Below are positions 4,223-50,600 of a stretch of DNA of 64,000 nt, piece after piece. The translations under genes and the position numbers were made by a program. Each line of letters starts with the position of its first letter. Within the stretch, counting starts at the first letter, position 1. The stretch covers positions 13,590,906 to 13,654,905 of the forward strand of contig CM055113.1 of NCBI GenBank assembly GCA_029204225.1, written 5' to 3'. Under the pieces are notes generated by a model, which made no database searches, was not told the DNA's origin, and saw only the letters and a program-made list of their open reading frames with translations. This DNA is from Diphasiastrum complanatum (lineage: Eukaryota; Streptophyta; Lycopodiopsida; Lycopodiales; Lycopodiaceae).

Positions 4223-5218
4223 CTAGGTACCCTTCAGATACTGTAGAATTCGTTTGGCCATTTTCCAATGTGCTAGACTAGGATTGGAACAGAATTGGCT
4301 CAATGCGTAGACAGAGAAGGCCAGATCGGGTCTGGTACAAATTGTTAAGTACATCAGACTACCGATTAACCTATGGTAGGGTATACCTGCCATCTTTTGT
4401 TCTTCCTCTTCTGTTTTTGGGCAATCTTGTTTCGTGAGCTTGGCTCCAGCTATCATTGATGTGGCTTTCTCTTCACAGTCCATCATGTGGTACTGCTTCA
4501 GCACTTTTCTAGCGTACTCTGACTGACTCAAGTGCATTTTGCCATTTGTTCGATCTCTTCTGATATCCATCCCTAGGCATTTTGTTGCTTCTTCAAGATC
4601 TGTGATTTTGTAGTTTTCAGAAATTTGACTCTTCGTGTCTTTGATCAACATCAAGGAATTTTCTATCATCATCAAATCATCCACGAAAATGGTCAATATC
4701 ACAAAATCCTTTCCTATTCTTTTGATGTAGACATTACAGTCTGGTTGAGTAGGAATGAAGTCTAGAGACTTCAGAAGACCATCAAGCTTTTTGTACCAGG
4801 CTCGTGATGCATGTTTTAGACCGTAGATGCATCTTTGCAATCGACAGACATATTGTCTGTTGTCGGGGTCTTCATAGCCTTCAGGTTGCTTCATGAAAAT
4901 TTTCTCCTCTAGATCTCCGTGGAGAAAGGCTGTTTTCACGTCAATCTGGTGAATTTCCATATTGTACTATGTGGCGTATGCAAGGAGCAGCCTTATGCTT
5001 GTCATCTTGACCATGGGCGAATATGTGTCAAAATAGTCGATACCATATCTCTGCATGTAGCCCTTCGCGACAAGCCTTGCTTTGTAGTGGCCAATGGCGC
5101 CATCTAATTTCAGTTTCTTCTTGTACACCCATTTGCAGTCGACTACTTTTCTGTTTTCTAGCAGTGGCTCTAATGTCCATGCCTCGTTTTGCCTCATCGA
5201 CTCGATCTCTTCTGACAT
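4223..5218 (-). pseudogene. Copia reverse transcriptase relic
   Basis: Two open stretches (5218-4967 and 4960-4223) are separated by one TAG codon, in the place of a likely Gln before YNMEIHQID. Visible motifs are [30 protein letters not shown], the YGLKHASRAW block and the catalytic IFVDDLMMI. Both catalytic aspartates are present. The stretch ends with ARPDLAFSVYALSQF-like sequence (here TRPDLAFSV) and the ILQYLKGT block that leads into RNase H. Confidence 0.88.
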
Positions 5219-5437
5219 TGCCTATTTCCAGAATTCTCCCTTTGGACTCTAGATAGCTTCTTGGTATGTAGCTGGTTCTTCTGTGAAGTTGCAGCAATCA
5301 AACTGCGTGTCTTCGCTCCATTGAAGATTGTCAGAATAGCGGTCTGGAGGTCTTTTTTGTCTGGTTGACCTTCGAGATTCGTTTAATCGCTGCTCGAACA
5401 TTTCTTGTTCGTGGGAGCAATCCTCTGTTTCCTGCTG

Positions 5438-6400
5438 CTATGGAGTCTGGGGTCCTGCATTCTGATTTGATGATTGTCCTTGATCTCCCTCTTGAATAGG
5501 CAGCAGTGTGAAGATCTCATGGCCTCTTTCATCTTTCAGTCCGGGGAATGTGGACTCGTGGAACTTCACATCTCTGCTCAAAACAACCTTCTTCGTGGTT
5601 GGATCGTAGAGTCTGTACACACGTGTTCCGTTCAAGTAGCCGACCATGATTGTTCGCTGAGATTTGTTGTCGAGCTTGTTTCTCTTTTCCTTTGGAATGT
5701 GCTTGTATGTTGCACATCCAAACACTCTTGCGTATGACAGATTAGGCTTTCTGACTGTCCACATCTCGTACGGTGTTTTGTTCTTCAGCGCTGTCGTTGT
5801 TGATTTGTTCTGTAGATGTACTACTGCAGCTATTGCTTCAGCCCAGAATTGGCCTGACAATTGAGCCTGTGCCATCATGCATCTGGCTCCTTCGACTAGC
5901 GTTCTGTTTTTTCTTTCTGCCACACCATTGTATTATGGTGTGTGTGTAGGAGTAAATTGGTGTTCAATCCCCTGTTCTTCACAGAATCTTGAGAATTCTG
6001 TGCTTTTGTATTCACCTCCATTGTCAGATCTAAGGATCTGTATCCTTTTTGAGGTGTGTCGCGCTGCGAATGCCACGAACTTCTTGAAAGAATCAAATAC
6101 TTTGGATTTCTTCTTCAGGTAGTAGATCATGGTCTTTCGACTGTAATCATCTATGAACGTTTAGAAATATTGCAAACTTGAGAGCGAATCTGTTTTCATT
6201 GGTCCACACACATCAGAGTGGACAAGCTCAAGAACTTCCTGAGCTCTTCTTCCTTCATGAGTAAATGGATTCCGATGTTGCTTGTCTTTATGACAAGCTT
6301 CGCAGAACTCAGCCTCGTCTCTTGATATTCTGAGACCTGTGACAATGTCCTTTGTGCTCATGTCGTACAGGCTGTGCATGTTCAGATGATACAATCTCCT
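5438..6400 (-). pseudogene. Copia GAG-pre-integrase and integrase relic
   Basis: Three successive open stretches on the minus strand together cover the GAG-pre-integrase zinc region (FCEACHKDKQHRNPF, HSDVCGPMK), the integrase core (RSDNGGEYKS) and NGVAERKNRTL followed by RVFGCATYKHIPKEKR. The catalytic D-D-E residues can be seen in HSD, RSDNG and VAER. At 5933-5935 the minus strand has TAA where the family has Gln (TP-stop-YNG instead of TPQxNG). The order and spacing are those of copia integrase, but stops make it non-functional. Confidence 0.85.
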
Positions 6401-15782: not shown

Positions 15783-16790
15783 TATTGGATTTAATTCCTC
15801 TAGTCACCTAAATCCCATTTTTAATCTGCCTCCATTCATGTTGTATATTTACTCGCGTTGTCGCGGAGTCTGCATATTCACATGTAAATTCTCACAGGTG
15901 ATGAAAAGACAAAAAGCAAAGGCTGACGTCACACTCTCTTTACGCTCATGCAGCTACGCTAACAAACTAGACGACGACTGCAACCACCCACAATCTCTTG
16001 CAGACATCAGATTCACCCTGTACTTTCTTCATCTGCACACCTGTAACATTATGTATATATATATATTGAATAACATTTGCGTATTCATTAACAACAAGGA
16101 AGAAGCTAGTAAGCGAAAGAGAACGAAGAAGAGAAGCTTATTAGAGATAGACAAAAGTAGATGCTCTATGCATTGATTCTTTGATTTTCATTCCTTTTAC
16201 AGTTTGAATAAGCTTCGTAGGGCACGTGGTTTTGTCTGCTACTGTCTTGTGCTCTACCGCATTATTGACATGTATACTTGATATACTTAATCTGATATAG
16301 TTCTTTGTTCTGCATTCAGATTTGTGTTAATATTGCTATGCTTATTATTCATTCGTCTGATCTTTCTAATTGCTCTTTCTGGTAATAGACAACTAACATT
16401 TAGTCTTGTCTTTCATGAATATTTCGCGACTAATTATTTGTCGAGCATTGTCTAGCTCTTCATGAATCATTCGTGACACATAATTTGTCTAGCTATTCAT
16501 GACAAATTATTCTTCCGGTGCATCGTTTATTAATGTTTGGCTACGTAATCAAGACCGACCGTGATTTCCATCACTAACATTTTGTTCGTTCTAATAGGTG
16601 TAGTCATGTTTTCGGAGAGTCTCGCATAGCTCATTCTGCTGCGCACGAACAATTTTTGTTTGAATTCATTTCTCATTCGAGTTCGTTTCTCGTTCGTGTT
16701 TGTCTTACCCCTCTGAGCTAATTTTTTTTTTTTTTTGTTTTCTAACATACGACACCTTTCTCAACTCTCCTACTCCCCCTCTCTCCAACA
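15783..16790 (+). repeat. 3' LTR of the nested copia element
   Basis: The ~1008 bp LTR starts TATTGGATTT (the 5' copy has TGTTGG) and ends CTCTCCAACA. It is followed by the target duplication ATCTT and by the resumed gag of the host element. The differences from the 5' LTR that I noticed are largely transitions. Confidence 0.93.
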
Positions 16791-16795
16791 ATCTT

Positions 16796-17640
16796 TGGGA
16801 TGTAGTAGAAGCAAATCCTCTAAGGAAGCATTGGACTTGTTATCAAGTCTTTATGAGACTCACAATGTAACCACGAGATTACATCTTAGAAGGAAATTCT
16901 TTACTCTTAGCATGTCTGATTCTACTGCCATCACTTCTTACATCAACAGCTTCAAGTCCCTATTAGATCGGTTATCAGTTGTAGGATGTTCTATTCAAGA
17001 TGATGATGTCGTTATGACCTTGATTTTTTCTCTTCCAAAATCCTATGAGCACTTTGTGGTGATGAACTCCACACAACCTGACCTCACTCTTCAAAAGGTA
17101 ATCGGTCATCTTCTTCAAGAAGAAATGCAGAGAAAGACCAGCAGCCTGTCCATCAAAGACAAATCCATGGCTCTATACACCAAGAAGAAAGACTATTCCA
17201 AGGGCAAGAATCAAGTGCAACAGCAACAACAGAAGCCTCACACTCAAGGTGAGCATGGTGGATCGCGCAAGAAGCTTTTCTGCAGATACTGCAAAAGGGC
17301 TAATCACGACATCAAGGAGTGTCGCATCAGGATCTACAACAAGGCAAAGAAGTAGCAACAACAGCAGCAGCCAGACTCCTCCAACACGGCGGAATTGAAG
17401 GAGTTAGATACACACTTGTTGATGCCTTACAGCAGCAGCGAAGACTGTGATAGCTAGTACTTAGACAGTGGCGCTACCCAATACTTGACCTCTCACAAGG
17501 AATGGTTTACGGAGTACACAGCTTACAACAAAGATCAATTTATTTACCTCGGAGATTCTAGCACCATACATGTGAAGGCAAAGGAGCAGTAAAGATCAGC
17601 TTCAACAACGATATGTCCATTTGTGTTCCTAATGTCCTTA
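16796..17640 (+). pseudogene. Older copia gag (3' part) and protease start
   Basis: After the nested element the older gag continues. A short deletion or frame change lies after DVVEANP, then comes a 206-codon open stretch with ALDLLSSLYETHNVTTRLHL and an intact knuckle CRYCKRANHDIKEC. A TAG follows KAKK, and the protease motif YLDSGATQYLTSHKEW appears near 17457. It breaks off at about 17640, where a minus-strand LTR begins. Confidence 0.85.
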
Positions 17641-20157: not shown

Positions 20158-20985
20158 ATGGACCCACATACAGATTCTGAAATACCGAACATTATCCATA
20201 CGAGATTAGGTTCCCTGTAGTTGAACAAATCAGATGTCATAGGTTCTACCGAATGCGGTCCCAACCCCACGAGCCATCTTCAAATCCATTTGAGGGACAA
20301 GGACCTGATAGAGCCGAGTCTTCACGAGCACGAGCCCATTCTTTTGGTGTTGAACCCTCCCAGGTCCGAACCAACCTTAATGGTGCTTCTGCCACTCACG
20401 GAGCTCATCTAGAGAGATGTACACTCAAGCTAGATCTACCAAAGTTTGACGGTACTTCGGACCTTCAAAGATTTTTGCAAATATTTGAGAATGCATGTGA
20501 TGTGTATGGCGAAACATCTCCCGATGCTATGGTCCAACTGTTTTTTATGACCATGATTGCTAAAGCACGTGATTGGTTTTTCAACCTTGATCGTGAAGAT
20601 AAGATAGACTGGTCAGTTTTGAAAGAGTCCTTTATCAAGCGTTTTAAGCCCTTTCGCTTGATTGAGAGTCCTTTTGTCAAATTGAGTAACATCAAGATGG
20701 CAAAAGACGAACATGTACGAGACTATATCGAACGTTTCAAACGCCTCAAAAGTCAAGTACAAGAACAACCTACCAAACAGATGCTCATCATATGGCTTTT
20801 AGTCGGCCTTCCAAGATGGATTAGACGCGAGCTTACATCCAATGATGAATATATGAGCCCAAAGTTAGCTATGTCTGATGCCATCAAAGAAGAAGACGAG
20901 GGATCAGATGTTGACGAATCCAGAGAAAGGAGAGCACCACATGCTCCTGTCCATGAGTCGAAGCCGATCGCGAATACCTGAGATC
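20158..20985 (+). pseudogene. Ty3/gypsy-type gag capsid region
   Basis: A 242-codon open stretch carries the retrotransposon gag signature: LPKFDGTSDLQRFLQIFENA, ARDWFFNLDREDKIDWSVLK and FIKRFKPFRLIESPF. A possible start ATG at 20158 is in another frame and meets TAG at 20218, so a frame change separates the leader peptide from the main frame. In a working element this is the capsid precursor. Only gag is present; protease and pol do not follow. Confidence 0.82.
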
Positions 20986-28042: not shown

Positions 28043-28570
28043 TTGGAACAAGCTCAAACATATAATTGTCCAATAACAAGAAGTCTTCACAATATGGCAC
28101 TTGTAGGAGGATATCTCTTAGAACCAAATGAAAGACTAAGTACCTCCAATTATCCAATATGGAAGGTTAGGATGGAGTCAGTTCTAAGACTCCAGGATGT
28201 TATGGACATAGTACTTGGTATTGAGGAGGAGCCTCAAGCACAGCTTGAAATACCAAAGTATAGAAAGAGAGCTAGAATGGCTCTACATTTCATTAAAATG
28301 AATGTCTCTAAGGAGATTCTAAGAGAAATAGGATCTTGCACCACTGTTAAAGAAGCTTGGGTTGCACTTAAGTCCATCTATGAAGCTAAGAACACTTCTA
28401 GAATACTCACTCTTAGAAATCAGATTTTTCAAAGTTTTCAAAGAAGTGAGGAGAGTGCATCAAATTATGTTCTAAGAATAAAAGATCTTTATAGGGAGCT
28501 TGCCCAATTTGGAAACTCTTCAAGGGATTCTCATCTCTGAAGAAGCAAAGCAAAGTTACAAAATTTCTAG
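28043..28570 (+). pseudogene. Copia gag
   Basis: A 165-codon open stretch holds ALVGGYLLEPNERLSTSNY, PIWKVRMESVLRLQDVMDIV and SYEAK-like AWVALKSIYEAKNTSRI, a copia gag of the UBN2 type. A frame change follows at about 28540 (NSSRDSHL). The related minus-strand gag at 44.8 kb shows what should continue there. It normally assembles the virus-like particle. Confidence 0.82.
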
Positions 28571-28575
28571 GATGA

Positions 28576-29140
28576 ATGCATATTGGAAGTTACAAAGCTC
28601 TCTTTGTCAAGGACAAGCATAAAGGGAGGAGCAAGAACCAGTTTTCTCAAGTTTTCAACAAAGACAAAGCCAAGGACAAAGACAAAGATGGTGAAGAGGA
28701 TGACTCAACTCATCCTTCTACTTCCAAGACCAAGAAGAAGAAAGTAAAGTGTTTCTTTTGTGGCAAGAAGGGGCACTATGTCTCTAATTGCTTCAAAAAG
28801 AAAAATCAACTCAAACAAGCAAATCTCTCTGATGAGAAAGAAGAAGATTTTATTGCAAGTGATGGAGAAGGATCACTCATGGTGTCAAGCTTTTCTTCAA
28901 CACCCTTCAAGAAAGATGGAACATGGTACATTGATAGTGGAGCCTCTTCACATATGTGTTGTTCAAAGGAGTCTTTTGACTCTATTGTACCTTATAAAGG
29001 ACTTAAAAGATCTATCTATACTACAAATGATCCTGAATGCTCTATTGAAGGAATTGGCAACATTCCATCAAAACTTGCTTCTTCTAAAGTTCTATCACTT
29101 TCCAATGTTCTTTTTGTTCCTAAGCTTACAAGGACTTGAT
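28576..29140 (+). pseudogene. Copia nucleocapsid knuckle and protease
   Basis: A 187-codon open stretch contains a Lys/Asp-rich linker, an intact knuckle CFFCGKKGHYVSNC (about residues 59-72) and the protease site TWYIDSGASSHMCCS. It ends LFVPKLTRT just before a stop, where a short deletion has removed 'NLLS'. Knuckle and active site are both chemically intact. Confidence 0.83.
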
Positions 29141-29559
29141 AAGTGTTGGAAAGTTGTTGATAGTGGTTGTGATGTAAAATTCAATTCCAATACTTTCTTT
29201 ATCAAGAAAGATGATGAGATCCTAGCTAATGGATCTAGATATGGTGGAATCTTCAAGTTAAATTCTTATGAGAATGCAAACTTTTGTGAAATTGCTCTTA
29301 TGTCTAAGGAGGAGTTATGGCATAGAAGGTTGGGAGATTATCATGGAGAGATGGGGCCGAGAATTGAGGAGGAGTCACCTCAAATTTTTTCACCAAGTAG
29401 ATCACAAAGAGAAAGATCTGAGCCTAAGAGGCTTACATATGGAGATAAAGGCAAGCAAGTGGAACTCAACTCCACTAATTATGCTTATTTTGTTTCACAT
29501 GAGGAGCCAAAGGATGTATATGATGCACTCAACTCAAGAGAATGGTTGCCATGGAGGAA

Positions 29560-30120
29560 GAATATGATGCATTGATTGCCAACAAGACATGGGAGCTTGT
29601 GGATCTTCCATCCAACAAGCACACCATTTGTTGCAAATGGGTTTTTTGAGTCAAATATAATCAAGATGGCACAATCAACATGTACAAGGCAAGACTTTGT
29701 GCAAAGGGTTTTGCTCAAGTTTATGGACTTGATTATGAGGAGACTTTTGCTCTAGTTGCAAAGATGGTATCAATTAGAATCATGATTTCTATTGCTTCTT
29801 TTTTCAAATGGCAAGTTTTTCAACTAGATGTCTCAAATGCATTTTTATATGGATATCTAGAAGAAGAAATTTATATGGATCAACCTCTTGGGTTCATCCA
29901 AGACAAGACCAAAGTCTGCTTGCTCTTCAAAAGTCTCTATGGACTAAAGCAAGCTCCAAGATTGTGGTATTCTCGACTTAACACTTTTCTTGATTCGCTA
30001 GGATTCAATCTTAGTAACTATGATCCTTCCTCGTATGTCAAGTTTTTATGATAGGGATATTGTCATTCTTCTCATTTATGTTGATGGTATTATCCTGACA
30101 TGAAGTTGTATCAAGTTAGT
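29560..30120 (+). pseudogene. Copia reverse transcriptase with damaged catalytic motif
   Basis: Motifs are TWELVDLPSNKHTICCKWVF, a TGA or TAG break, ARLCAKGFAQVYGLDYEETF, FQLDVSNAFLYGYLEEEIYM, SLYGLKQAPRLWYSRL and then LIYVDGIILT. The family has YVDD; here the second Asp is Gly, which would abolish polymerase activity. A frame change separates SSYVKFL from the YVDG block. Confidence 0.87.
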
Positions 30121-30157
30121 TGAAGAAACCAAAATTGCACTTGGAAAAGAATTCAAG

Positions 30158-31045
30158 ATGCAAGATCTTGAAAAAATTCATTGCATATTAGGATTAGAGA
30201 TTGACTTATATAAAGAGAAAGCTTTTGTTTGTCAATCCAAGTATGCTCTTTCAATGTTAAAAAAGTTCAATATGCTAGATTGTAAGAGTATTGATACTCC
30301 TATGGAGCAAATTGTAAAAGACCCTAACAAAGGTGATGAAAGATCCTTCGTGGACATCACTCTTTTTAGGAGTCTTATAGGCTCCTTAATTTGGCTCACT
30401 ATACCTAGGCATGATGTAAGTTTTAGTGTTCATACGTTGAGCCAAGCTATGCAAAATCCTACTATTCATCATCGGAAAATGGCCAAAAGGGTACTTAGGT
30501 ACATATCTTCAACCTATGATTATGGTTTGTTATATAAATTTAGTGAAGATCTTTCCATAGTTGGCTATTCTGACTCGGATTTTGCAAGTGATAAAGCAGA
30601 TCGGAAATCTATAAGTGCATATGTCATATATCTTGGAGGAAATTTGATATCTTGGCTTTCCAAAAAGCAAGATACTATATCACTCTCATCTTGTGAAGTT
30701 GAATATAAGGCACTCACTACTACAACAAAAGAAGTGCTTTGGATCAAGAGGTTGTTAGTGGAGCTAAAGATAATCAACGAAGATGATCTACCTTTGATCA
30801 TGTGTGACAATATTTCAGCACAAGCCCTTGCAAACAATCCAATATTTCATGCAAGGAGCAAACACATCGAGGTTGCACATCACTTCGTGAGAGAAAAACT
30901 CATTAGAGGGGAAATCTACTTGGAGCACATTGAAACATCATCTTGTATTGCAAATTTGCTCACCAAACTTTTGAGCAAAAATTCTTTCATCAAGCATAGA
31001 GCCAATTTTGAAATAATACCAAGATCCATGTTCAAGTCAACATAG
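30158..31045 (+). pseudogene. Copia RNase H, long open frame
   Basis: A 295-codon open stretch runs from the RT thumb (MQDLEKIHCILGLEIDLYKE) through SLIGSLIWLTIPRHDVSFSV, YSDSDFASDKADRKSISAYV and SLSSCEVEYKALTTTTKEVLW to SKHIEVAHHFVREKL and the C-terminal end. There are no stops, so this part is less decayed than the other copia relics here. The catalytic acidic residues of the domain (D in YSDSD, E in EVEY, D in CDN) are visible. Confidence 0.87.
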
Positions 31046-36125: not shown

Positions 36126-36285
36126 ATTCTAGAAAAGGGAGTAACAAATTATCATAAATCAACACATAAAATGTTTGGTGTGATGGTCCAACCAAAGGAC
36201 GAGAGATGTGAGAGGGGGATGGTGACTCGTTGAGTACCACCCTTTGCTTGGCAGGCCTGATGGGCTTGGTCTGCTTCCTTCTTCG

Positions 36286-36726
36286 TTAAGGAACAAGACC
36301 TCTCTCTGTAGGTGGTGGCCTAGAAGTGAAGCCACTCTTAAAGACTTGATCGTATGTACTCCTCAGCCTCATGACAAGATGCATGTCCTGAGGCATGAGG
36401 GTAACCCTCTTAGCGTGCACTGTACAAAGCGTGGAGTCCTCAAAGAATTTGACTTGGAAGTCCTCATAGGCAGTATGGAGGGCTTCCAGGGCTGTTATGT
36501 TCCAGCGAACGTCAGGTGAGAGGGACCTTGTTACCAGTCTCACAGACCTGTAGAAAGGAGCACGGGAAATCAGAAGATTTGTGGTCCTCTGAAGTCTCCT
36601 GATATCCCTTAACCATGGTCTTCTGGGCCGACCTACTCTCGTACCAGTGCCCACTGCCCTTTGTAGAGGAGGGCGAGGAGGCGGGGCAAATGTGGTAAAG
36701 CGGGTTGTCTGCTTGGTACGGGCCAT
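36286..36726 (-). CDS. Divergent histone H3 variant, CENH3-like
   Basis: The intact 146-codon single-exon frame starts MARTKQTTRF and is followed by a Pro-rich tail, then a complete H3 fold: RDIRRLQRTTNLLI (alpha N), RAPFYRSVRLVTRSL (alpha 1), RWNITALEALHTAYEDFQVK (alpha 2) and FFEDSTLCTVHAKRVTLMPQ (loop 2, alpha 3). The tail has one lysine, K4; K9 is Phe and the K14, K18, K23, K27 and K36 sites are gone. TNLLI, Trp at the start of alpha 2, AL.AL, A.ED and RVTLM are CENH3-like. Loop 1, however, has canonical H3 length without the usual two-residue CENH3 insertion. A C-terminal extension of about 20 residues follows. A TATA box lies 257 nt upstream. It could be a centromeric-type, germline or mobile-element-borne H3; the domain call is firm, the role inferred. 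Confidence 0.88.
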   Translation of the reverse strand: MARTKQTTRFTTFAPPPRPPLQRAVGTGTRVGRPRRPWLRDIRRLQRTTNLLISRAPFYRSVRLVTRSLSPDVRWNITALEALHTAYEDFQVKFFEDSTLCTVHAKRVTLMPQDMHLVMRLRSTYDQVFKSGFTSRPPPTERGLVP

Positions 36727-36738
36727 TGCAAGGTAGGG

Positions 36739-36883
36739 TATCGATATGACGCGCCAACGAGCAGGGAAAGCAGGTATTCGACAGGGGAGGCGCGTGATGG
36801 TGATATGAGCGATGACGTATTGCCACGACGCGCGGGCGGGCTAGCTGTACTGGTATGTGGGTCCTTTGGCGCGTGGTAGCGAT
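36739..36883 (-). promoter_or_regulatory. 5' leader blocks of the H3 variant gene, mirrored in the partner gene
   Basis: Read on the minus strand the leader contains ATCGCTACCACGCGCC (36883-36868), CATATCACCATCACGC (36807-36792) and GGCGCGTCATATCGATA (36755-36739). The same three blocks occur in the same order before the divergent gene. The gap between blocks 2 and 3 is 36 nt in both. They lie downstream of the predicted transcription start, so they act in the 5' UTR or as downstream promoter elements. Confidence 0.75.
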
Positions 36884-36954
36884 ATGCGTCTAACGGGGAG
36901 CGAAAGTGAAAGAAGGAAACTAAGGAGAGCCAGAGAACGAAGAATTAAGAAACT

Positions 36955-36983
36955 GAAATAAGACCCGAAAACGTCCTTTTATA
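36955..36983 (-). promoter_or_regulatory. TATA box and initiator of the H3 variant gene
   Basis: Minus-strand TATAAAAG starts at 36983, and TTTCAGTTTC places an initiator CA at 36955, 28 nt downstream. The partner promoter shows the same 28 nt spacing and the same CAGTTTC initiator. Predicted 5' UTR is about 230 nt. Confidence 0.7.
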
Positions 36984-37037
36984 CCTGTAGAATGTCCCAT
37001 CATATTCACACGTTCGATGTGACACCTCCACTCCCCG

Positions 37038-37298
37038 CACGTGTGGTCACACACATTCTTCACGTGTCAAGATATCAGTGGTTCGTATGATCAGACGGCT
37101 GGCATGCACGTGCGAGGACACGTGGTGACATATGGACCACACACGCTTCAAAAGACGACTGGGGCATACAATAGTATAGTTGGCATGCATGTGCGAGGAC
37201 GTGTGTCAGGATCCGAAGTGTACACGTGTCATTCAGAATGATTTCGGCATCGTTTCCACACGTGTGGCAATTTTGACCGCACGTTACTGAGACACGTG
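37038..37298. promoter_or_regulatory. G-box cluster in a bidirectional promoter
   Basis: Seven CACGTG cores lie at 37038, 37061, 37107, 37119, 37223, 37259 and 37293, all between the two divergent TATA boxes. Most read ACACGTGT or CACGTGTC, the ABRE/G-box form bound by plant bZIP and bHLH factors. A local direct repeat 'ggcatgca.gtgcgagga' (37101 and 37182) contributes to the array. Co-regulation of both genes by such factors is inferred. Confidence 0.75.
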
Positions 37299-37324
37299 TA
37301 CGGATCAGATGCTCTGTATTAGAC

Positions 37325-37354
37325 TATATATATGAGTGTCGTTTCTATAATTCA
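37325..37354 (+). promoter_or_regulatory. TATA box and initiator of the divergent partner gene
   Basis: TATATATATG starts at 37325, and the initiator CA of ATTCAGTTTC lies at 37353, again 28 nt downstream. Predicted 5' UTR is about 207 nt. Confidence 0.7.
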
Positions 37355-37407
37355 GTTTCGCATATTGAGTCCAATTAACCGGCCCGCTCCAAATCTGTTT
37401 GTACAAT

Positions 37408-37561
37408 ATCGCTACCACGCGCCCAGCAAAGACATTCATAGTTGCACTGATTCCCTGGCGCGTGGTTCCGATATTCGGATTCGCGTACAATGCATATCAC
37501 CATCACGCACCCGCGCTTACCTCGTTTATGTCCCCTTGCTAACTGGCGCATCATATCGATA
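37408..37561 (+). promoter_or_regulatory. 5' leader blocks of the divergent partner gene
   Basis: ATCGCTACCACGCGCC (37408-37423), CATATCACCATCACGC (37493-37508) and GGCGCATCATATCGATA (37545-37561) match the blocks of the H3 leader exactly, except for one base in block 3. Block 3 runs into the start ATG at 37561, supporting this start. Confidence 0.75.
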
Positions 37562-39510
37562 TGGCCTCCTCATCTGCTAGTTTGATCTATGATAAAGCTC
37601 TTAGTTCTTTCCTAGTTGATGTTGAGGTTAGCGACAAATAGGCCCATTTTTTGTCCTATTTTGATTTTCAGTTTCACATAGAGGGATTTGTTATTGAGCA
37701 CAAGAAAATTTTTTCTAAATTGTACAAGGATTTTTATGAGTGCTTGCAACAGGGTACCCTTCTGATGGACGGCCTTAGATTTGTGCATTTCACAGATTTG
37801 GCTCATGCTCAGCCAAGTGCCAAGCAAAGGCATGATTGTAAGTTTATCAAACTTATCGATATGTTTAAATGTGTCATACCCTGTGAGGAACACAATCAAG
37901 TATGTCGCTTCGTTCAGGAGGGTATGGCCTTCGTGTTTTTCTTATCTGCTCTTATCCTTGACAAGGTAGAATCTTCTGGGTCATCCATGATTGGTTTGCC
38001 TGCCCCTACCACTCGTGTGGCTTCAGAGGTTTCCATTATTGATGAGATTTTAGGAGGTGTAGAGGAGGCCAGGCAAGCAGAACAATATGATTCTGCCAAG
38101 GCTCGTTCTCTGTCTATCTCTCAGAGCAGAATCCTGATGGACTTCCCTGTGTACCATATGGATGATGTTGCATTCTTATCCATTAGCGACATCGGAGACG
38201 TAATGGATCTCAGAGAAGATGAGATATTATCTCTTATGTCAAGGATGATTTTTGAATTTAAAGATTTTATTGACTTTGATGATGACGACCTCATAGATGG
38301 CATCGACTATGAGGACCAGGTAGAATGGGGAAGTGGCACATATGCCCTTCAAAGGATGCTATCTAAGAGCAAGGCATATGAGGCTAATATGCCCAGTGAT
38401 GAGGAGTTTTTGGCTTTTCAGAAAAAGTATCCGCCACCTCCCACATATACTATTCCAGCTGACCAGCAATCCACCATTATTGCTGGTCACAATTTAGATG
38501 CTGCTGGTATGATCCAAGCTGACGAGGAGGATTTGGTAAGTACACCTTCTCTCGAAAATCATTTATTATTTAACGTGTAATTATTAGAGGAGTTCTAAAT
38601 CCAAAAAAGTTTGTAAAGATTCTTTCTATATTTTTTTCTCAAATTTTTCTTACAAATGGACCAATCAAAACACTCAAATTTGAAATCTACGTAACGTAAC
38701 TTTTTGAGTCCACATTTTGATTCCATACTAAAAATGGCATAACTTTTTAGTGGTAAGTCCGAATTTAGCGAAGTTTGGTGCATTGGAAAGCGCTTGACAA
38801 GGGCTTTCCAATGATATGTTAGATGACATACTTTTGAGCTACGATTAAAAAGTTATGGCAAGTCAAAATTATTAGTGTTATAATATTTCAATAATAAAAA
38901 AGGCATCTTGCACGAATTCTTAAAGGGTCTTTTTGGAACTCAAAACTCTTCTAATGTGATGATTGATCTGCTAGTTTGACTAACACTTGATTATGTGTTG
39001 TAGGATATCGTTGAAGTTGATGTCTTTGCTAGCAAGCATGGAGGATTGAGAGAGAGACAAGGCGAGAGACAGAAGGATGGCTCGTTGGCTCATTATTTGA
39101 AACATTTTTTAAATAACGAAATTTGTGTTCTTCATGAAAGGTTTTTTGTGAATGCGGGAACTTTAATCATGGCCATCAAGGCTCTATCTTATTTTGCCCA
39201 AGGGCATAAATACCCAAAAAATACATATAGAATCATTTTTGTCAAAAGAGATGTTGCTCTTAAAGTGTTTAATTATGTGCCAGAAAATGTTCCTATGAGA
39301 TCCTCTGCTCTGGCAATTCTATCAGGATATATAGATTTACGCAAAAGGCGATCCACTCAATTTTTGGATTGTATGATAGGAAAAAGTTCCTTCGTGACCA
39401 CACAACAAAAATTGTCCTTAGAGACAATGAAAAAAAATGATTGTACTCTTTTTCATTTAATGTATGTGAAATTTGAGAATTTTTTATCACACATGTTTGA
39501 TCTTTATTGA
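37561..39510 (+). CDS. Unrecognised two-exon acidic protein, divergent partner of the H3 variant (one in-frame stop)
   Basis: Exon 1 (37561-38535) ends EEDL at GTAAGT. Exon 2 (39004-39510) starts after TTGTAG with DIVEVDVFASKHGG, joining in phase 0 to give about 494 codons. One TAG at codon 27 (37639) interrupts an otherwise open frame; no later ATG gives a long start, so it is a young pseudogene or needs readthrough. The N-terminal half is Cys/Phe-rich (KLYKDFYECLQQGTLL, HDCKFIKLIDMFKC). A strongly acidic run, DFDDDDLIDGIDYEDQVEW, lies near residues 236-255. Exon 2 is mostly helical and basic (FVKRDVALKVFNYV). I recognise no family. The acidic run beside an H3 gene invites a histone-chaperone idea, which is speculative. 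Confidence 0.65.
38536..39003 (+). other. Predicted intron of the acidic-protein gene
   Basis: The borders are TTG|GTAAGTAC and GTTGTAG|GAT. The 468 bp intron is AT-rich with in-frame stops, while both flanks stay open in matching phase. Confidence 0.7.
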
Positions 39511-39864
39511 ATGCCATCAATCTAATTTTGGCTTATAAATCTACATGCTTTTTTGAATTTTTGATATTCAGTTGATCTTGTTGTGTATCGAACTTGAGCT
39601 CGTCTATAAAACCATTGAAATAGCTTAATGATGTAACTATTTTTTGAGGATGTTCCACCATGTTGTGTATTTCGATAAAATGCTACTCTTGCCTGCCAAT
39701 GTGATTTCTCCATTCCTTGTGAAGACCATATACTCAAACTACCATACTTTTTTGCAAAAAATGATGCATGATGCCTTAGTATGTGCTGCAATATCAAAGA
39801 TTTATGCATTGGTTAGAATCTATCAAGCAAGTTATACTAAAATTATAAAATTGTAAGACACTAT

Positions 39865-42150
39865 TCAAATGTATCTTACCATGTAGTGGGTGATGTGATC
39901 TGAGCCCCAAGCCACCCGAACTGCATCTACAAACTCTATTGCTGTTTTCTCCAATAGGAGTGCATCTGCATATGAAATTGTGTCTTTTCTAAGCACTTCA
40001 ATCATATTATCAAGCTTTTTCCAAACTTCAACCTTCTTTACCCTTGTTGTTCCTTTATCTTCAAAGTCTTCTGTCGCAGAAATAACATCTTTCCAAATCG
40101 AATATTGGATCTTAGACGACTCTTTAGAATGATTTGATAAAAATCGACGAGCTTTCACTCCTAGTATGCTAGGTTTATTGGGTACGTTTCCTGTTTTTCC
40201 CGAAAGCTTTTCATCTTTTTGTATTTTAACATGGCCTTTATGAAGGCCTGCTTTTGACAACACTTCCTCTAATCGAGCGATTGCTTGTTTTAATGCTAAC
40301 TCTGGCTTAGTATCCATGCAAACAAGATATGAAGATATATTAATTTCTCTATGATCCTCACCTCTGCATGAAGTGTGCAAATATGCACATTTTGTAAAGG
40401 GATTGGTAGTACTGGTTTCCAGTTGGGATCTTCAATATCTCTTGAAACTCTTGTGTTCCTTGAAATGTCATTTGATGATTTCATACAATATAGACATGGA
40501 TGTTTTGAATTTGCTCCATGAGATACATTGAAAATACATTTCAATGACTTCAAGTCTCCAGCTAAATGCCATTCCACCAAAAATTCACCTCTTTCAGGAA
40601 CACTAAGTACTTTGCCATTCATATGATTTTTTATGATATATGGATAACTTGTTCTGCTAAAAATCCAGGAAAGAACATCGTGATCCTCCTTGATAATCTG
40701 TTCAACATATGGAATCACAAGTTTTTATGTATTCAAGACAATTACCAAAAGAAATTGCACATGCATAACAGCCATTTTTTACCTGAAAACATGCTAGCCA
40801 CCATATGTTGTTTTCTGATTGCACACTGAAGTTGAGATCCCTTGAGTTTGTTGCATTGCTCAATGTTCCATTCATGAGAGTAATACTTACTCTTTCCAAC
40901 TTTTGTCCTTTTATAACTTCCGATTCATCTAGCTTGACCACCAGAATAAGTTTGCTCATACTAACACTTGTAATATTATAGAATTTCACTATAAATCTCA
41001 ATAAATGATTCAAATTCACAAATAAGTTGTTGGTAGAATTATATGACAAATTGCCAGACTTTGAATTGTAAATCTCATTGATGTGAAAAGGGATTCCAAT
41101 AACATTTTGCATACCCTTATTCAATACATCTCTCTCCAATCTTATCTGAAAAGGGCGAGGAATGGGAAATTTTCTAACATGCAATTGTCCAAAAGCCTCT
41201 TTAATAATTTTAAATATACTGGCATATGCCTCCCTGCTAATACCTGAGAGATCACATGCTCCCTGAATTAACGTTCGGTCGATTACCTTACCGATCTCGT
41301 TCATCAAATCCTCAGTGACCTTGGACTTGATTCGAGAATACCGATTATTGTCCAATAAAGACTTTGTGGACTTGGTTTTCAATACCGAACTTAGTGATTT
41401 TCCGATCAGGTCATTGTCCTTCAGATGCTCAGTTGCAACCAATGCTGATCTGCATATGAAAATCAAGAAACCCAAATAGGACACATAATAAATGTCATGC
41501 TACTTCACAAAACTAAAATAAAACTGATTGAAATCAAATCCTTATTTGAATGCTTGAATCCTTTTTCTCCGTTGGCCTCCATTTAGTGAAGCTCATCAAT
41601 GTCCTTCAGAATTCTTTTTCGCTTGTTTCTTTTTTATTTCTTATCTAGTATGCGAGTTTATTCTTTTAACTGGTCATTTGATATACGTAATGTCTGAACA
41701 ACTTGTTGGAATTGATCATTACTTGCATTCAAATTTAACATAATATTATGTATACGTGCATTATCTTCTTTTGTTTGTAATAATGCGGTCACTTTTTCTC
41801 TATAGTCAGCAAGCAAACCATTTAACATACATTCTAAACTCTGTATTTTCTGAACCGAGTTTGCAACACCATAAGTCGTCAATCTTTCACAATAACCCAA
41901 TAAACTGTCTTCTCTGTCACACAAAAACTTTATTAATTGTGTGATGGATTGGAATTGTGGAGCTTGCATCGATCCAATGGATACAAACTTCCGTCAATCC
42001 ACAAATCGTAATTCTTTCTTTGGTTGATTCTGTGAGCGATCATATCAAGTGGAGAAACTGTGGATTCTTTCACTACTCCTCTTTTAGCTATCGGAGCATT
42101 CTCGGCAGGGAGAACAATGTGTAGATGAAACTGAGACATCTCCGCAAACA
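39865..42150 (-). pseudogene. Exon-split DDE-transposase-like gene
   Basis: Minus-strand open blocks are: a coiled-coil segment (about 41969-41658, LADYREKVTALLQTKEDNAR); exon 2 (41449-40783; acceptor ATGCAG, donor CAG|GTAAAA), with KLDESEVIKGQKLERVSITL; and exon 3 from 40697 with EFLVEWHLAGDLKSLKCIF, HGANSKHPCLYC and HICTLHAEVRIIEKLIYL, then after a one-base frame change ALKQAIARLEEVLSKAG to a stop at 39865. An Asp before the split, a second Asp in GDLK, a C-x2-C, then C..LH resemble a DDE-type transposase with a zinc insertion, as seen in many animal and protist genomes. The family name is not certain. The frame change near 40325 and a TGA near 41990 suggest decay. Confidence 0.55.
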
Positions 42151-42179
42151 TCAGATGACAGACCAAAAAGAAAATAGAC

Positions 42180-42470
42180 ACTATTATTCATCCATGACGT
42201 ACATGAGATTCTATGTTTATTCTCTCGCTAGTTAAAACGAGGGACACAATCTCATTTTCAAATTTGAAAAAGTTAGTTAATTGGCGTCATAGGTTCTTGA
42301 AGTCGCAGTTGCATACGTCATAATCGTGTCATGTTAACTACACATTACTAGTAAGGTTAAGCTAAACTGGACCTGAAAATCCATCGGAGTTTTAAAATCC
42401 GGCCTTTTTTTTTGTCCTACGTGGCATTTCTTAGACGGCCCTTTTGATGTTTGTAACTCCTCTAATGATG
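42180..42470. other. Intergenic, nothing recognised
   Basis: A short unassigned stretch lies between the transposase-like gene and the gypsy gag. It might contain one end of the mobile unit, but I found no inverted repeat partner near 36.1 kb. Confidence 0.35.
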
Positions 42471-43440
42471 GAACTATGGTAATGATCAAGAAGGTGGATC
42501 TTCAAAACAATATGCTTTTTATGCTGTCGTGCAACAACAAGCATGTGGAGAAAATCACAGAGTTGCAGAATGTCCAAATAAAGAAAAATTTGTACCATTT
42601 TGTCGTGACTGTGGTTATGGGCATTGCTATAAGGAGTGTCCAGCAAAACCAAAGCCACCACCGGCCATAGCTCTTGTAAATTTGATAACAATCAAACAAA
42701 GACTAGTAGCTCAGAATAACCAATTGTACCCTTGATGGTGGTCACCAGAGCACAGAAGCAGAAAGAACCGGTAGCAGATCCAGTACCTATTGATTCTATA
42801 CCATTAATTGATATACCAACAGCATTTGGAGTCTATCCAAATCTTCATGCAAAAAAAAGAAGATATCAGGATATGAGGCAGTGGATTAAAAATCTGCAAG
42901 AAGAAGAGGAGCTTGAAGCTACTAGAGCAACATCCAAAGTTCGTTCTTCACCATTGCAGTTACCGAAAAATTCACATACAAATATGAATGTTCAATTGCA
43001 TCATCATGAAGAACCCTTCAAGATGATTGAACCAAAAGCACCACAAACAAAAGTACTCATGGATATTTTGTCTAGTAAGATCAATATTTCATTGGGAGAG
43101 TTCCTGAAGTTGGTGCCAAAAGCAAAAGAAGTATTAGCGCAAAAGTTAACTCAAGTTGAACTAGAAGTCCATCAGGAGCCACTTTTTTGTGCTGGATTTG
43201 AAGAATCTAATGAAGTACTCCATGTCAGAGCAGCTTGGGAAAGTGAACAAAAAAATATCACTCTATCGATACAGCATAGACAATTTCCTAATGAAGCAGC
43301 TGTCATCAATGCCTTAATCTGGTCAATGAACAAGTAGCTATGGATTATCAAATTGAGAATATTAATATGCTCAAAGAAACTCAATCAAGGCATTCACCAG
43401 ACTTTCAGAATGAGGATTATATAGCATCGATATTCTATGG
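42470..43440 (+). pseudogene. Gypsy-type gag C-terminal part with zinc knuckles
   Basis: The plus strand encodes QQQACGENHRVAECPNKEKF, then FCRDCGYGHCYKECPAKPKP, a C-x2-C-x3-H-x4-C knuckle. After a stop near 42733 a 201-codon stretch starts VVTRAQKQKEPVADPVPIDS and continues with ILSSKINISLGEFLKLVPKA, a segment typical between gag and protease of gypsy-like polyproteins. Its end lacks the protease D-S/T-G motif. It is a fragment of a retroelement unrelated to the copia pieces nearby. Confidence 0.65.
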
Positions 43441-43651: not shown

Positions 43652-44812
43652 TTAAACTATGTTTCTTAACTTGGTATCTTGAGTCAACTCCTCCATAACC
43701 ATATTCACACTTTCAATAGCCACATTAACATCCAACTTGAAAAGCCTTCCTTGCTTAATGCCACTAGCTATGCACTTATTATTTTTCAAGATGGAACACA
43801 CTCCATTCTTGAAATGTACATCTAGTCCATTGTCCATTAATTGACCAACACTAAGCAAGTTTTTTGTAATGGATGGAACATACAAAACATTATCAAGATC
43901 TATCCTTTTAGATGATCCTAAGCATAATGGAATAGATCCTATGCCATCTATCTTGCATTCTTGATCACTAGCAGTGTAGATTGATTTCTTAGAATCATTA
44001 CAAGAAAGTAGATAAGAGAAATAATGCTTGTTGAATGACATGTGGGAACTAGCCCCACTATCAATCCACCATGTCTCTTGGCTTGATGTTGGTGTAGATG
44101 CTATCATCAAGGATGTGTTGAAGCCATCCTCTTCCTCCTCCCCTTGTGCAAGATTGCCTTGATTTTCATTCCCTTGTGCATTTTTCTTCTTATAGCTTTC
44201 GGAAGCAAAGTGTCCTTTCTTTCCACAAAAGAAACACTTCAACTTTGCTTTGTTCTTTTGCTTTCCTTTGGAGGTAGATGCTCCATCCTTTGCCTCGGCC
44301 TCCTTGCCTTGGATCTTCTTGAAAGGATGAGACTTCTTCTTGCCTTTAGATGTGAAGTTTGCTTTCTCATCACCATTATGTAGTGATAAGGACCCCATTC
44401 TTGTTTTGAGGTGTAGAATCCTACTCTCTTCAGCCACAAGAACATTATGCAATTTTTCAATTGCTGGAAGTTGGTCTTGAATAGCAAAAGATTGAACTAG
44501 ATTAGAGAACTCATCTCCTAATCCATTCAAAGTTACTTGTACTAGTTCATTATCTTGGATCTTCTCTCCTGTAGATCCCAATTCTTTGTTCAAGGATTTT
44601 ATCCTTAGGACATACTCTTGTCCATTTTCTCCACTTCCCCTCATGCTTTGCAAGAACAAGTTTCTTAGCATAAGCACTCTTGAAGTGTTGTTGGATTCAT
44701 AAATGTTCTTTAGTGAATCCCAAGCCTCTTTTGATGTGGTACAAAAGCCACATGCATACAAAAGTGTAAGTAAGTTTAGATATATGATCACGGGCAATGG
44801 GCACTTACCCAA
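43652..44812 (-). pseudogene. Copia gag-protease fragment, 386 codons open
   Basis: From about 44770 leftwards the minus strand encodes CTTSKEAWDSLKNIYESNNT, VLMLRNLFLQSMRGSGENGQ, a Lys-rich linker, the knuckle CFFCGKKGHFASES and the protease site WWIDSGASSHMSFN, then VLYVPSITKNLLSVGQLM. It matches the gag of the 28 kb copia element. The last knuckle Cys is Ser, breaking zinc binding although the frame is intact. The first ~80 gag residues and everything after the protease are missing; sequence right of 44770 is unrelated. Confidence 0.85.
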
Positions 44813-45436: not shown

Positions 45437-45617
45437 ATTAATAGTATCTAGCAAGAATAGAATTTTGTAGTGCTTTAAAAAATTTCAAAAAATTCTCATC
45501 AAATTCCCCACAAAAATCCTTGCATTTTGATTCCCATATTGCCAAGAAAAACAGTGTGTGTTCCAAAGATTTTGGGACAGTCTCTTGAAATGTGTTTTGG
45601 AATGCTGTTATGCAAAT

Positions 45618-45722
<105 letters not shown>

Positions 45723-45853
45723 TAGCAGAGGTAGCAGGAGGAGGAGGTAGGCCGGGGATACCAAAGCAGGCAGGAGAGAAGGGAGGAGAGGCAGCGAGCA
45801 GCAACAGTAGCGAGCAGAGGCAAGAGTGCAGCTGCAGCTGCGAGGGAGGCCGG

Positions 45854-47256
<1,403 letters not shown>

Positions 47257-47654
47257 ATGGCTGGCTTGGCAAGGCCAGCCGTGGTAAACTTGGTAGGAAC
47301 CAACACTAAGCACTTGCCCAAAAGCCATCCAAAATTCTTCGGCAGTGCGCTTTCTTCTCTGGTTACCATCCCCAAAACTGCTCTTATCAATAGAGCTCTA
47401 TGTACTGATGTAATAGTTGTAGCCCATGCAAATCTAAGTTTGTCTAAGCTTCCAGCAAGCCCATCTCAGGATCAAATTCAGGATGCTGGCGATTCCATTC
47501 CTTGTAGCAGGATAACGTGGGGGCAGCTGGCTGTGCAGGGTCCTAGAACGGAAATGGAGGATGAAATTGTGGTGGAGGGTCCTTGTCCTTATGGCTTCAC
47601 GTATGCAGCTGTTTTTGATGGACATGCCGGATTTTCGTCTGTCAAATTTCTAAG
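47257..47654 (+). CDS. TAP38/PPH1: PP2C exon 1
   Basis: ATG at 47257 is the first in frame and gives MAGLARPAVVNLVG, a plausible plastid transit start. The exon carries the first metal-binding motifs (TEMEDE, VFDGHAG) and ends CTAAG|GTTTCG in phase 2, within SVKFLR. Confidence 0.9.
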
Positions 47655-50600
47655 GTTTCGTCTTTACTTGATTTCCAGTGTCGAATGCTGAAATTTGATG
47701 CGAAGCAGGTGTGATATAGATTTGCTGGCATCCAAAACAGTGGTCATTTGATCGATTTCTTAATTGCTGACAAATTTTTGGTAATCGCAAAATATTTTTC
47801 TAAAGGTTATTATTCCGTGATGAAGTTTGTGTGCAACTGAATTCGTCTTAGTTATTATTTGAATAATTCTTCATTGATTTGCTTTTGTTCTAAAGTGGGC
47901 ATAACAGCTGAGTGCACAATTCTTGCTTGATCGTCTAAAGATTTGCTGGGGCATTCTCAGAAATGAGCTTTACAAGGAATGCATGGCCGCATTGCAAGGT
48001 GGCCTTTTGCTGGAATCTAATGACGTTGGTGTGATTAAAGATGCTCTCTCTGCTGCCTTCTTGCAGACAGATCGTCGACTGTTGTCCTGGTTTGCAACGT
48101 GACCAAGTTCTTCTTACCTACAGTTATTAACAGAAGTGCTGAGCAACAAAAAAATCTTGTATGAAACAAAAAACATGGCTTACAATGATATGTATCATCC
48201 AATGAATCCAAATTCTAAGCCAATAAGGCCTCGTGCATGCCAGTTTACCGGCTTGCTGTATGACAACAGATCAGAATTCCGAATATTTTTGTTTTTGTGA
48301 CAGACAAATGCCCTTTAAAAACTTTTTACGGATTGACTGCATTGTGATGACTTTCAAGAGTAAGGAAATGAGTAGACCTCTGGATAGTTTCACCAGCGAT
48401 GATAATAATGTAGTCAAAATTACTATTGTGTAGAGTGCTTCAGATGCATGTACTATGGCATCTAAGATCAAAGGACAATCAGACATTTTTTCTAAGAATG
48501 ATGTATCATGCACAGACACTGTTGAAAGGGCTTGCACACATCTTCCTGCTCGTGTCTCTAATACAGCAACCCTAACTTCTGGCTTTTCTTTCTGTCTCTT
48601 TCACACAGGCTGGATGAACTCAGAGAAGATAACGAGTCAGGTTCTACTGCAACTGTCATGTTTTTGAGAGCAGATCGTCTCATTGTTGCACATGTTGGAG
48701 ATTCACGTTTGGTGCGTATGATTTCCCTTCATTATGAGATCAACTCACCATTGATGACATGGATTCACATTTGCATATTCAATATCTATGACACTCCATC
48801 TTTTTTTGGAGCTTGGACATCTATTGTTGGTTCAAGATGAAAGTCACAAGGAAACACTGAACTCCCATTCAAAGAGGGCAAGAAAGAAAGAAAATACACT
48901 CAATAGAGAGAGACAGACATGCTTGAGCATAATGCACATTTGATGTGAAGAAGTTATGTAAGATCAGTGAATCTTTGATAGTAAAGAATGAAATCAATGA
49001 ATACAAGAATGAAGAGGTGTCCAATTTAGTCTTATACACTCTTCTAAATGTCCAGTAGAGCTGTAACAAAACTTTGCCAAAAATAATGACCTGCAAAGAT
49101 TTCTGAGTGTCCTGGTATATACCATAGTATATACATGTTTTAGATATTCATCAAACCACCTGTTTACCATCTCAGATTTTCCATCTGATGGTGAAGACAT
49201 GCAGTGCTGGGACTTAATGTTGGACCTAGGCAAGCAAACAATTATTGCCAAAAGCTGTGAGGTTTACATCCCATATCAGAAACAATCTACTGTGGTAAAC
49301 CATGTGATTGACATTTTTTTCCATGAACTGTGTATCTACCTTCCTTTTTTGTTAGAATGAAAAGTATTACTTTAGTGCACCTATCAACCATCACGAAGAT
49401 GCTATTCCGAATCACCTGAACTTAGAAGAAGACTTGCAAGAAAATCGGTGTTGATATGGTGTAACCTCTTTGATATCGGCACTTGTTACAGCAACCCCAT
49501 TAACATTGATTGCTATTTTTGTTCACTTGGCATTGGGTGACATGATCTGACACATCGCTCCACAAGCCTTTCCATTGTCCAAACGAGCTTTGTTTGATTT
49601 CATTGTAGGCTTTATTTAACCGTGCATGTTTCCCAAAGGTGTTGCATGTACTTGGCACTTGCAGAGCCTGATTCTTGAAATCTACTTGTGATGTAAACTA
49701 AGCCTTGCCTTTATACCTCAATAATCCACCCTAAGGAAGAGGATGGTGGACGTGGACGCGCACCGGACATTGCCCGCACCCGGCCCGGTCTGAATCCACC
49801 CCTCAATTGATAGTTGGGTTATTGTGTAAAATCTTCGACTGTTAGGGTCCTGAACATATTTACCACCTCCGGATCCTCCAAAATTTCCTCTTGGATCTCT
49901 GAAACCAATTATTATGTACTTTAGATATTGACAATGCTTGGCGTCATAGTTCCATAGCATATGGAGTGGGCGTGCTCATAATGCCACTCCATAAAAATTA
50001 AATATGTGTATCAAAGGGTCAAAAGACTGATAATATTTCTTCATATGAGCAGAAAATATCAGAAAAATAACAAAATGAATTAAGTTTCCAAAATAATTTG
50101 TTAATATGATAGTTTTGTGTCAAAGGAAATGGGAATTTTTGCAAAAAATCGAGGCTTTTTATTAGATGATAAAATATAGTTACGGTACTTTTTATTAGAG
50201 TAGACGCTGGTTAATGTATAGATAGCAACGTAAAGGCAATTCTCCTTGACATGAAATTAATTAAGTGTATCTTCTAGTTGAACTAATCTTTTCATGACCA
50301 CAAGAGCCCTTTTTTTTTGAAGAAGGTAGTTCAATTTTGGGGAGTATTACTGTTGTATTCATTGTTAACGGAAGTTCAAACAATTTGTTTTTGCATAAGT
50401 TATAACCGATTCATATCTACATTTCCAAAAAAATTTCAGAAAAATTCTTAGCCCCCACCCCCTCCCATTTCACACCACTTTGACGTGAAATAACTTGTCC
50501 AAAAGTTAAGATGAGTTGCTGGCTCTCAAAATCTGTAGCAAAAAGGACATTTCATGGGCCTTTTCCCTACATATGTAGTGTTCATAATTGCAATAGGTGC

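Follow-up and report, generated by a model that had tools for sequence, protein, structure and literature searches.

The DNA analysed here, hereafter the window, is a stretch of 64,000 nucleotides from Diphasiastrum complanatum (Lycopodiaceae; C22:13590906-13654905). It contains a histone H3-like open reading frame (ORF) of 146 aa on the minus strand. Pfam matches this ORF to the core histones (PF00125, E = 6.5e-24) and its top-ranking chains among solved structures are H3, in agreement with the first-pass annotation, which had recognised a histone H3 fold. The same annotation had described a tail that keeps K4, carries Phe at position 9 and has no further lysine, together with the motifs TNLLI, VRW, ED, RVTLM and FED..LC..HAKRV; all of these are found in the ORF, which also aligns to H3 without a gap in loop 1, as the canonical loop length ascribed to it would require. 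The gene had further been called TATA-driven, and a TATA box is indeed present upstream on the same strand.

Two other properties, an intact reading frame and a single exon, do not hold. Codon 147 is TAA in the window and CAA in all 16 other copies compared (the next codon being TGA in three of those, L010, L017 and L018), and a break at 36176 deletes the remainder of exon 1 and the later exons. In fuller copies exon 1 is longer and is followed by two more exons, with splice sites inferred from sequence. The reported C-terminal extension consists of residues that are really there, but these are the start of a basic linker cut by the premature stop; the TAA codon and the break at 36176 together account for its appearance as an extension. 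Phe9 is likewise private to the window copy among 17 family-1 copies (Leu in 15, Ile in one), and Leu occupies this position in all 12 family-2 copies. An intact host H3 variant is ruled out by the stop and the truncation. We conclude that the ORF is almost certainly a degraded copy of the gene that characterises a D. complanatum DNA transposon lineage; this gene encodes a fusion of H3, a linker and a C48 peptidase-like domain. The features of the locus are as follows.

36176-42467, no strand assigned: left-truncated family-1 copy of the H3-bearing DNA transposon, from alignment with 20 other loci, the junction and the termini
36176-36285, minus strand: what is left of the basic linker (RRRKQTKP...) after the premature stop, without the C48 part that other copies have
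36286-36726, minus strand: H3 domain, the truncated exon 1 of the H3-linker-C48 fusion gene, with a stop at codon 147
36976-36983, minus strand: TATA box TATAAAAG
37038-37124, no strand assigned: four G-boxes (CACGTG) between two divergent genes
37651-38580, plus strand: divergent element gene, an ORF of 309 aa whose homologue adjoins the family-2 H3 gene in L045
38582-38956, no strand assigned: nested MITE of 375 bp with a similar terminal motif, missing at this site in all seven other copies compared
39868-41484, minus strand: putative transposase gene, so called from its position only, with ORF blocks on either side of an inferred GT-AG intron
42455-42467, no strand assigned: right terminus AACTCCTCTAATG, which in inverted orientation matches the left terminus seen in fuller copies

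The shared unit was defined by alignment of the window to 20 other loci. It starts at about 36176 in the window and ends at 42467-42474 in the five copies that reach the right end within the fetched stretch; other copies extend leftward beyond 36176 by up to about 3.15 kb, and the left terminus of the fuller copies is, in seven of them, CATTACAGGAGTT or near it. The element has inverted ends, CATTA...TAATG. No target duplication was found in the flanks of three copies (L024, L016 and L012), a small sample drawn from four in which the right end was sought. The TATA match is frequent (14 of 17 family-1 copies, with TATATAAG in 12 of 12 family-2 loci), and at least one G-box is found in 16 of 17 family-1 and nine of 12 family-2 copies. 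A loose pattern places E2F-like sites upstream of the ATG in 10 of 17 copies of family 1, and two of 12 family-2 loci have them; they were given no weight.

Besides the H3 gene, the element carries at least three ORF blocks. One lies on the plus strand of the left arm in L009 and L016. The divergent gene has no Pfam match at E = 1; it is homologous to a gene adjoining H3 in family 2 (E = 1e-19 and 9e-31). The putative transposase gene is frameshifted in the window, where two ORFs correspond to one 284-aa ORF in L016, and an AlphaFold model of the transposase-like exon (mean pLDDT 40.8) was too poor to use. Outside the H3-C48 gene, no match reaching the Pfam cut-off was obtained for the element ORFs scanned; hAT, MULE and tnp2 domains were all absent from them, a result that may have missed part of the transposase, as its frame is split. 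The nested MITE belongs to a family, since a 93% match to it also lies inside L026. Set against the empty sites, its insertion is compatible either with the absence of a duplication or with one of 3 bp less three bases, a comparison that chimaeric copies could mislead; it was perhaps moved by the same transposase as the H3 element.

These properties were compared with those of known transposon classes. CACTA (EnSpm) elements have CACTA/G ends, a 3-bp duplication and a tnp2 domain; the element departs from this class in its CATTA ends, the absence of a duplication in three copies and the absence of tnp2 from the scanned ORFs. It differs from the MULE/Vandal type (KIU) in its inverted ends and the absence of a MULE domain from the scanned ORFs, and from the fungal hAT type in the absence of a hAT domain from the same ORFs and of an 8-bp duplication in three copies. 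The H3 gene is not cargo of an LTR retrotransposon either, as the copia and gypsy pieces of the window fall outside the shared unit. These pieces are copia-type remains and one gypsy-like gag at 4223-5923, 16735-17355, 20253-20981, 28043-31045 and 43652-44812, called by Pfam RVT_2, SH3_retrovirus, Retrotran_gag_2, Pol_BBD and Retrotrans_gag. Elsewhere in the window, an ORF at 47257-47691 resembles by eye the start of a PP2C phosphatase (TEMEDE, FDGHAG) and has no Pfam match at E = 0.01, and long dinucleotide repeat tracts at 45600-45980 are the source of many spurious matches between loci.

The H3 query recovered at least 150 scored places in its own genome, at 100% down to 71% identity (from 6862 first-look candidates); we refer to these as family 1. 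The best protein match to the ORF, at 61% identity over 92%, is a D. complanatum hypothetical protein (P0001; O6H91_14G014700), which sits twice on C14 at 100% and, used as a query in the same genome, defines a second family, again of at least 150 scored places. The two lists do not overlap (no shared place within 1 kb). Among the 150 scored copies of each family, 56 of family 1 and 79 of family 2 are without a stop in the matched stretch, the other 94 and 71 having one. Family 1 is found on 22 and family 2 on 21 of contigs C1-C23, and jointly they occupy all 23. These counts may be inflated by assembly duplicates, given the identical or near-identical locus pairs L033/L034, L040/L041 and L042/L043. 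With at least 150 copies scored in family 1 and at least 150 in its sister family, the H3-like ORF is well beyond chance, and P0001 is itself a copy of the transposon H3 exon that may be mistaken for a host histone variant. Of the three origins suggested earlier for the window H3, centromeric, gametic or element-encoded, the last is thus borne out by its many copies and its place on a transposon.

Of the 150 scored places of family 2, 26 cluster on C3:18.5-30.1 Mb. Eighteen of these have no stop, and the cluster includes two pairs about 14 kb apart in opposite orientation. The H3 of L046, from this cluster, has K4; its sequence follows the fusion as far as about residue 129 and ends at a stop at 152.

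A plant CENH3 query of the genome gave at least 150 scored hits, 13 at 59-60% and 137 at 40-57% identity. The one examined among the 13 is a canonical H3 (L047). The 137 weaker hits do not overlap with the family-1 list (150) or with 111/150 of the family-2 list; three of them were examined, of which L048 and L049 represent a third fusion family and L050 is a CENH3-like exon. The remaining 134 were not counted as transposon copies.

The coding capacity lost from the window is seen in other copies. In four of the 13 family-1 copies translated (L009, L022, L023 and L024), exon 1 has 364-365 open codons and a common end; in L028 it has 392 and a different end, the remaining eight stopping sooner. 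The open length is 345 codons in L038 (family 2) and 337 in L049 (family 3). The order is H3, a basic stretch, a Pro/Ser-rich linker and the start of a second domain, followed by a GT donor. The basic stretch RKQ..P.R, identical in all six rows from three families, is possibly a nuclear localisation signal. With splicing inferred from sequence, exon 2 supplies HW and NSL..TH and exon 3 supplies QQ.DGHSCGW. Exons 2 and 3 of L010 score 27.1 bits against Pfam Peptidase_C48 (E = 4.3e-6; cut-off 20.7), and E falls to 3e-8 when the exon 1 end of another copy is prefixed, a query that mixes two copies; the corresponding exons of L045 (family 2) give 12.5 bits (E = 0.13), below the cut-off. In its match above the cut-off and in having the HW and QQ..G..CG motifs in order, the domain resembles Ulp1/SENP proteases (PF02902); it differs from them in having Asn at the usual Asp and an H3 domain at its N-terminal side. 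Counted over 22 exon-2 rows/loci (L038 and L045 being one place), 20 of the 21 covering rows retain the C48 His (Tyr in L023) and the usual Asp is Asn in 20 of 21, in both families (Ile in L037). The C48 Cys is present in 24 of 24 exon-3 rows from 23 loci.

Alignment between families extends over the fusion. The family-1 protein aligns to all 12 family-2 loci, for nine of them as a single alignment of 288 columns or more (48-54% identity); its alignment to family 3 spans 339 columns (30% identity; E = 8e-40), and families 2 and 3 align at 29% (E = 1e-33). Three diverged families therefore share the H3-linker-C48 architecture. An AlphaFold model of the fusion had a mean pLDDT of 36.5 and was too poor to use. 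A protein-database search with fusion residues 180-397 yielded 492 candidates, restricted to 0.55-1.75 times the query length and shared short words, none of them at E = 0.01.

We found that other copies, too, lack nearly all tail lysines. K4 is kept in 17 of 17 family-1 and 12 of 12 family-2 copies, and beyond it there is no tail lysine in 28 of the 29 (16 of 17 in family 1, L021 having one, and 12 of 12 in family 2), where host H3 has seven lysines in the corresponding stretch. The older family-1 copies L025 and L026 have one tail lysine each. In family 3 (L049) the N-terminal end reads MDRKKQTRR and the rest of the tail is without lysine. Arginines persist in the tail (means 7.4 and 6.2), so that the loss concerns lysines and not basic residues in general.

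The H3 part is also the most constrained part of exon 1. For the 17 copies of family 1 (136 pairs) its pN/pS is 0.34, and for the 12 loci of family 2 (66 pairs) it is 0.51; between the two families it is 0.285 (204 pairs), a value that is only rough because synonymous change is saturated (pS = 0.83). When four family-1 copies are compared with L038, pN/pS is 0.30 for H3, 0.45 for the C48 part and 0.77 for the linker, and within the four copies the values are 0.29, 0.59 and 0.52, respectively. As a control, the four share on average 91% identity over the H3 coding part, against 82% and 78% over two 450-base stretches upstream. Within family 1 the H3 fold (0.26) and tail (0.71) differ. The motif H.KRVT.MP of alpha 3, which takes part in H3-H3 and H3-H4 contacts, is kept in all six rows from three families. 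These ratios indicate that recent copies drift and that the surviving lineage is constrained, H3 most of all.

We then consider the relation to CENH3, a host gene of one or few copies with a loop 1 longer than that of canonical H3. Like P0012, P0028 and P0071, the transposon H3 has W before alpha 2, ED, RVTLM and LLIP.APF; unlike CENH3/CENP-A it is multicopy, transposon-borne and fused to a protease-like domain, and its loop 1 has the canonical length in family 1 (no gap against H3), being four residues longer in family 2. In a 27-row tree the seven transposon H3s from the families form one clade (98/93), which points to one capture of H3. The AU test on this tree rejects neither a grouping with plant CENH3 (p = 0.351) nor one with canonical H3 (p = 0.195); on an earlier 28-row tree, p was 0.317 for plant CENH3 and 0.154 with animal CENP-A also included. 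A branch (95/85) of the 28-row tree had canonical H3 and animal CENP-A on one side and, on the other, the transposon H3s together with three plant CENH3s and two further H3s; this branch was not recovered in the 27-row tree. The CENH3-like exon L050 (C9:47175250-47175950) is 57% identical to Anthurium CENH3 over its residues 83-167; it has 75 residues, lies behind a proline-rich low-complexity stretch and forms a long branch in the tree, and is probably an exon of the clubmoss's own CENH3. Among the origins entertained by the first-pass annotation, a centromeric H3 is very unlikely in the form of a host CENH3 and is discarded, on the multicopy transposon location of the window gene and on the canonical H3 (L047) and the CENH3-like exon (L050) that the genome has besides.

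A viral origin was also rejected: viral contigs held no relative of the fusion, and the three-family alignment matched two viral loci at 30-31% in the histone part only, which we take to be generic viral histones.

Each half of the fusion has a precedent on transposons. In the available parts of the fungal reports, H3 is carried by hAT elements in Pyrenophora tritici-repentis, where it is named H3L and a chimeric transcript is mentioned for the short form (PMC3538342), and in Pseudocercospora fijiensis, with an 8-bp target duplication (PMC6710886). As described there, these are likewise DNA transposons with inverted ends, present in tens to hundreds of copies and carrying a diverged H3; H3L, however, is an ORF beside hAT transposase sequence, whereas the clubmoss H3 is fused to C48, and the diverged clubmoss families stay under constraint. 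The Ulp1-domain proteins KIU and VANC belong to the plant MULEs Kaonashi and Vandal, and VANC directs the loss of methylation from related elements, according to the accessible portion of a 2026 review of plant gene capture (PMC13317346), for which the literature listing gives a count of 0 for the word histone. The likeness lies in a plant transposon accessory protein with an Ulp1 domain; the KIU/VANC MULEs are non-TIR in that portion of text, which mentions no histone part, in contrast to the inverted ends of the clubmoss element. No histone-Ulp1 fusion on a transposon was found among the open-licence matches listed (titles and abstract beginnings), and none appeared among the matches listed for D. 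complanatum with histone, or for CENH3 with lycophyte or Selaginella.

Transposons are usually repressed through histone-tail marks. We propose that the fusion would enter the nucleus through its basic linker, pair with H4 and enter or mimic chromatin on the element DNA. With K9 and K27 absent it would not receive repressive marks, the K4 end being retained, and the C48 domain would bring SUMO-protease activity and remove SUMO on site; the outcome would be to oppose host silencing and aid transposition. As an explanation of the whole, a transposon H3-C48 fusion acting against silencing is in our view the best available and somewhat better than an even bet. The anti-silencing role taken by itself, for which the Ulp1-bearing MULE proteins VANC and KIU offer a plant model in the available text of their source, may well be correct but falls a little short of even likelihood. 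The most specific version, a 'Trojan nucleosome' in which an H3 closed to methylation at K9 and K27 is tethered to a SUMO protease, built into element chromatin and so blocks both histone marks and SUMO-dependent silencing, under selection through at least three families, is tentative and on balance doubtful.

Four other readings need to be weighed against an anti-silencing fusion. The fusion may not be deposited at all and may act as a decoy or chaperone titrator, its ARTKQTAR end and H3 fold binding readers, demethylases or histone chaperones and diverting them from silencing. The retention of K4 in every family-1 and family-2 copy, while the tail is otherwise loose relative to the fold within family 1, argues for this reading; the preservation of H.KRVT.MP in all six rows suggests real pairing instead, and the N-terminal end of family 3 is altered, so that we regard the decoy as unlikely, if a serious contender. 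A plain dimerisation module, in which the histone fold joins the protease to another element protein in transposition and has no chromatin role, would agree with a fold more conserved than the tail and with a tail free of lysine. Families 1 and 2 nevertheless keep K4 and the greater part of the H3 N-terminus, which a dimer does not need, and we consider this reading improbable.

A targeting device, in which a CENH3-derived H3 steers integration to centromeric or heterochromatic DNA, is slightly less probable still. The CENH3-type residues (LLIPRAPF and W before alpha 2), a link to plant CENH3 that the trees do not reject and the clustering of 26 scored family-2 copies on C3:18-31 Mb are consistent with it, but scored copies are spread over all 23 large contigs and the one cluster copy examined (L046) departs from the fusion sequence. 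That H3 is a passenger, captured by chance and amplified functionless with the element, as reported for the P. fijiensis hAT elements (PMC6710886, in its available part), would suit the high copy number, the many broken copies and that fungal precedent, but is unlikely, given the persistence of the fusion in three diverged families, an H3 pN/pS of about 0.3 between families 1 and 2, and the retention of key residues in both domains.

The finding carries a warning for annotation, as H3-like genes in annotated genomes may belong to transposons, O6H91_14G014700 being an example. For D. complanatum, it means that a transposon lineage carries its own H3, stripped of mark-bearing lysines, joined to a SUMO-protease-like domain and maintained by selection. 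The families offer a natural experiment on which tail lysines are dispensable to a nucleosome, and if the proposed function is true, the element would be a selfish one that directly sabotages chromatin.
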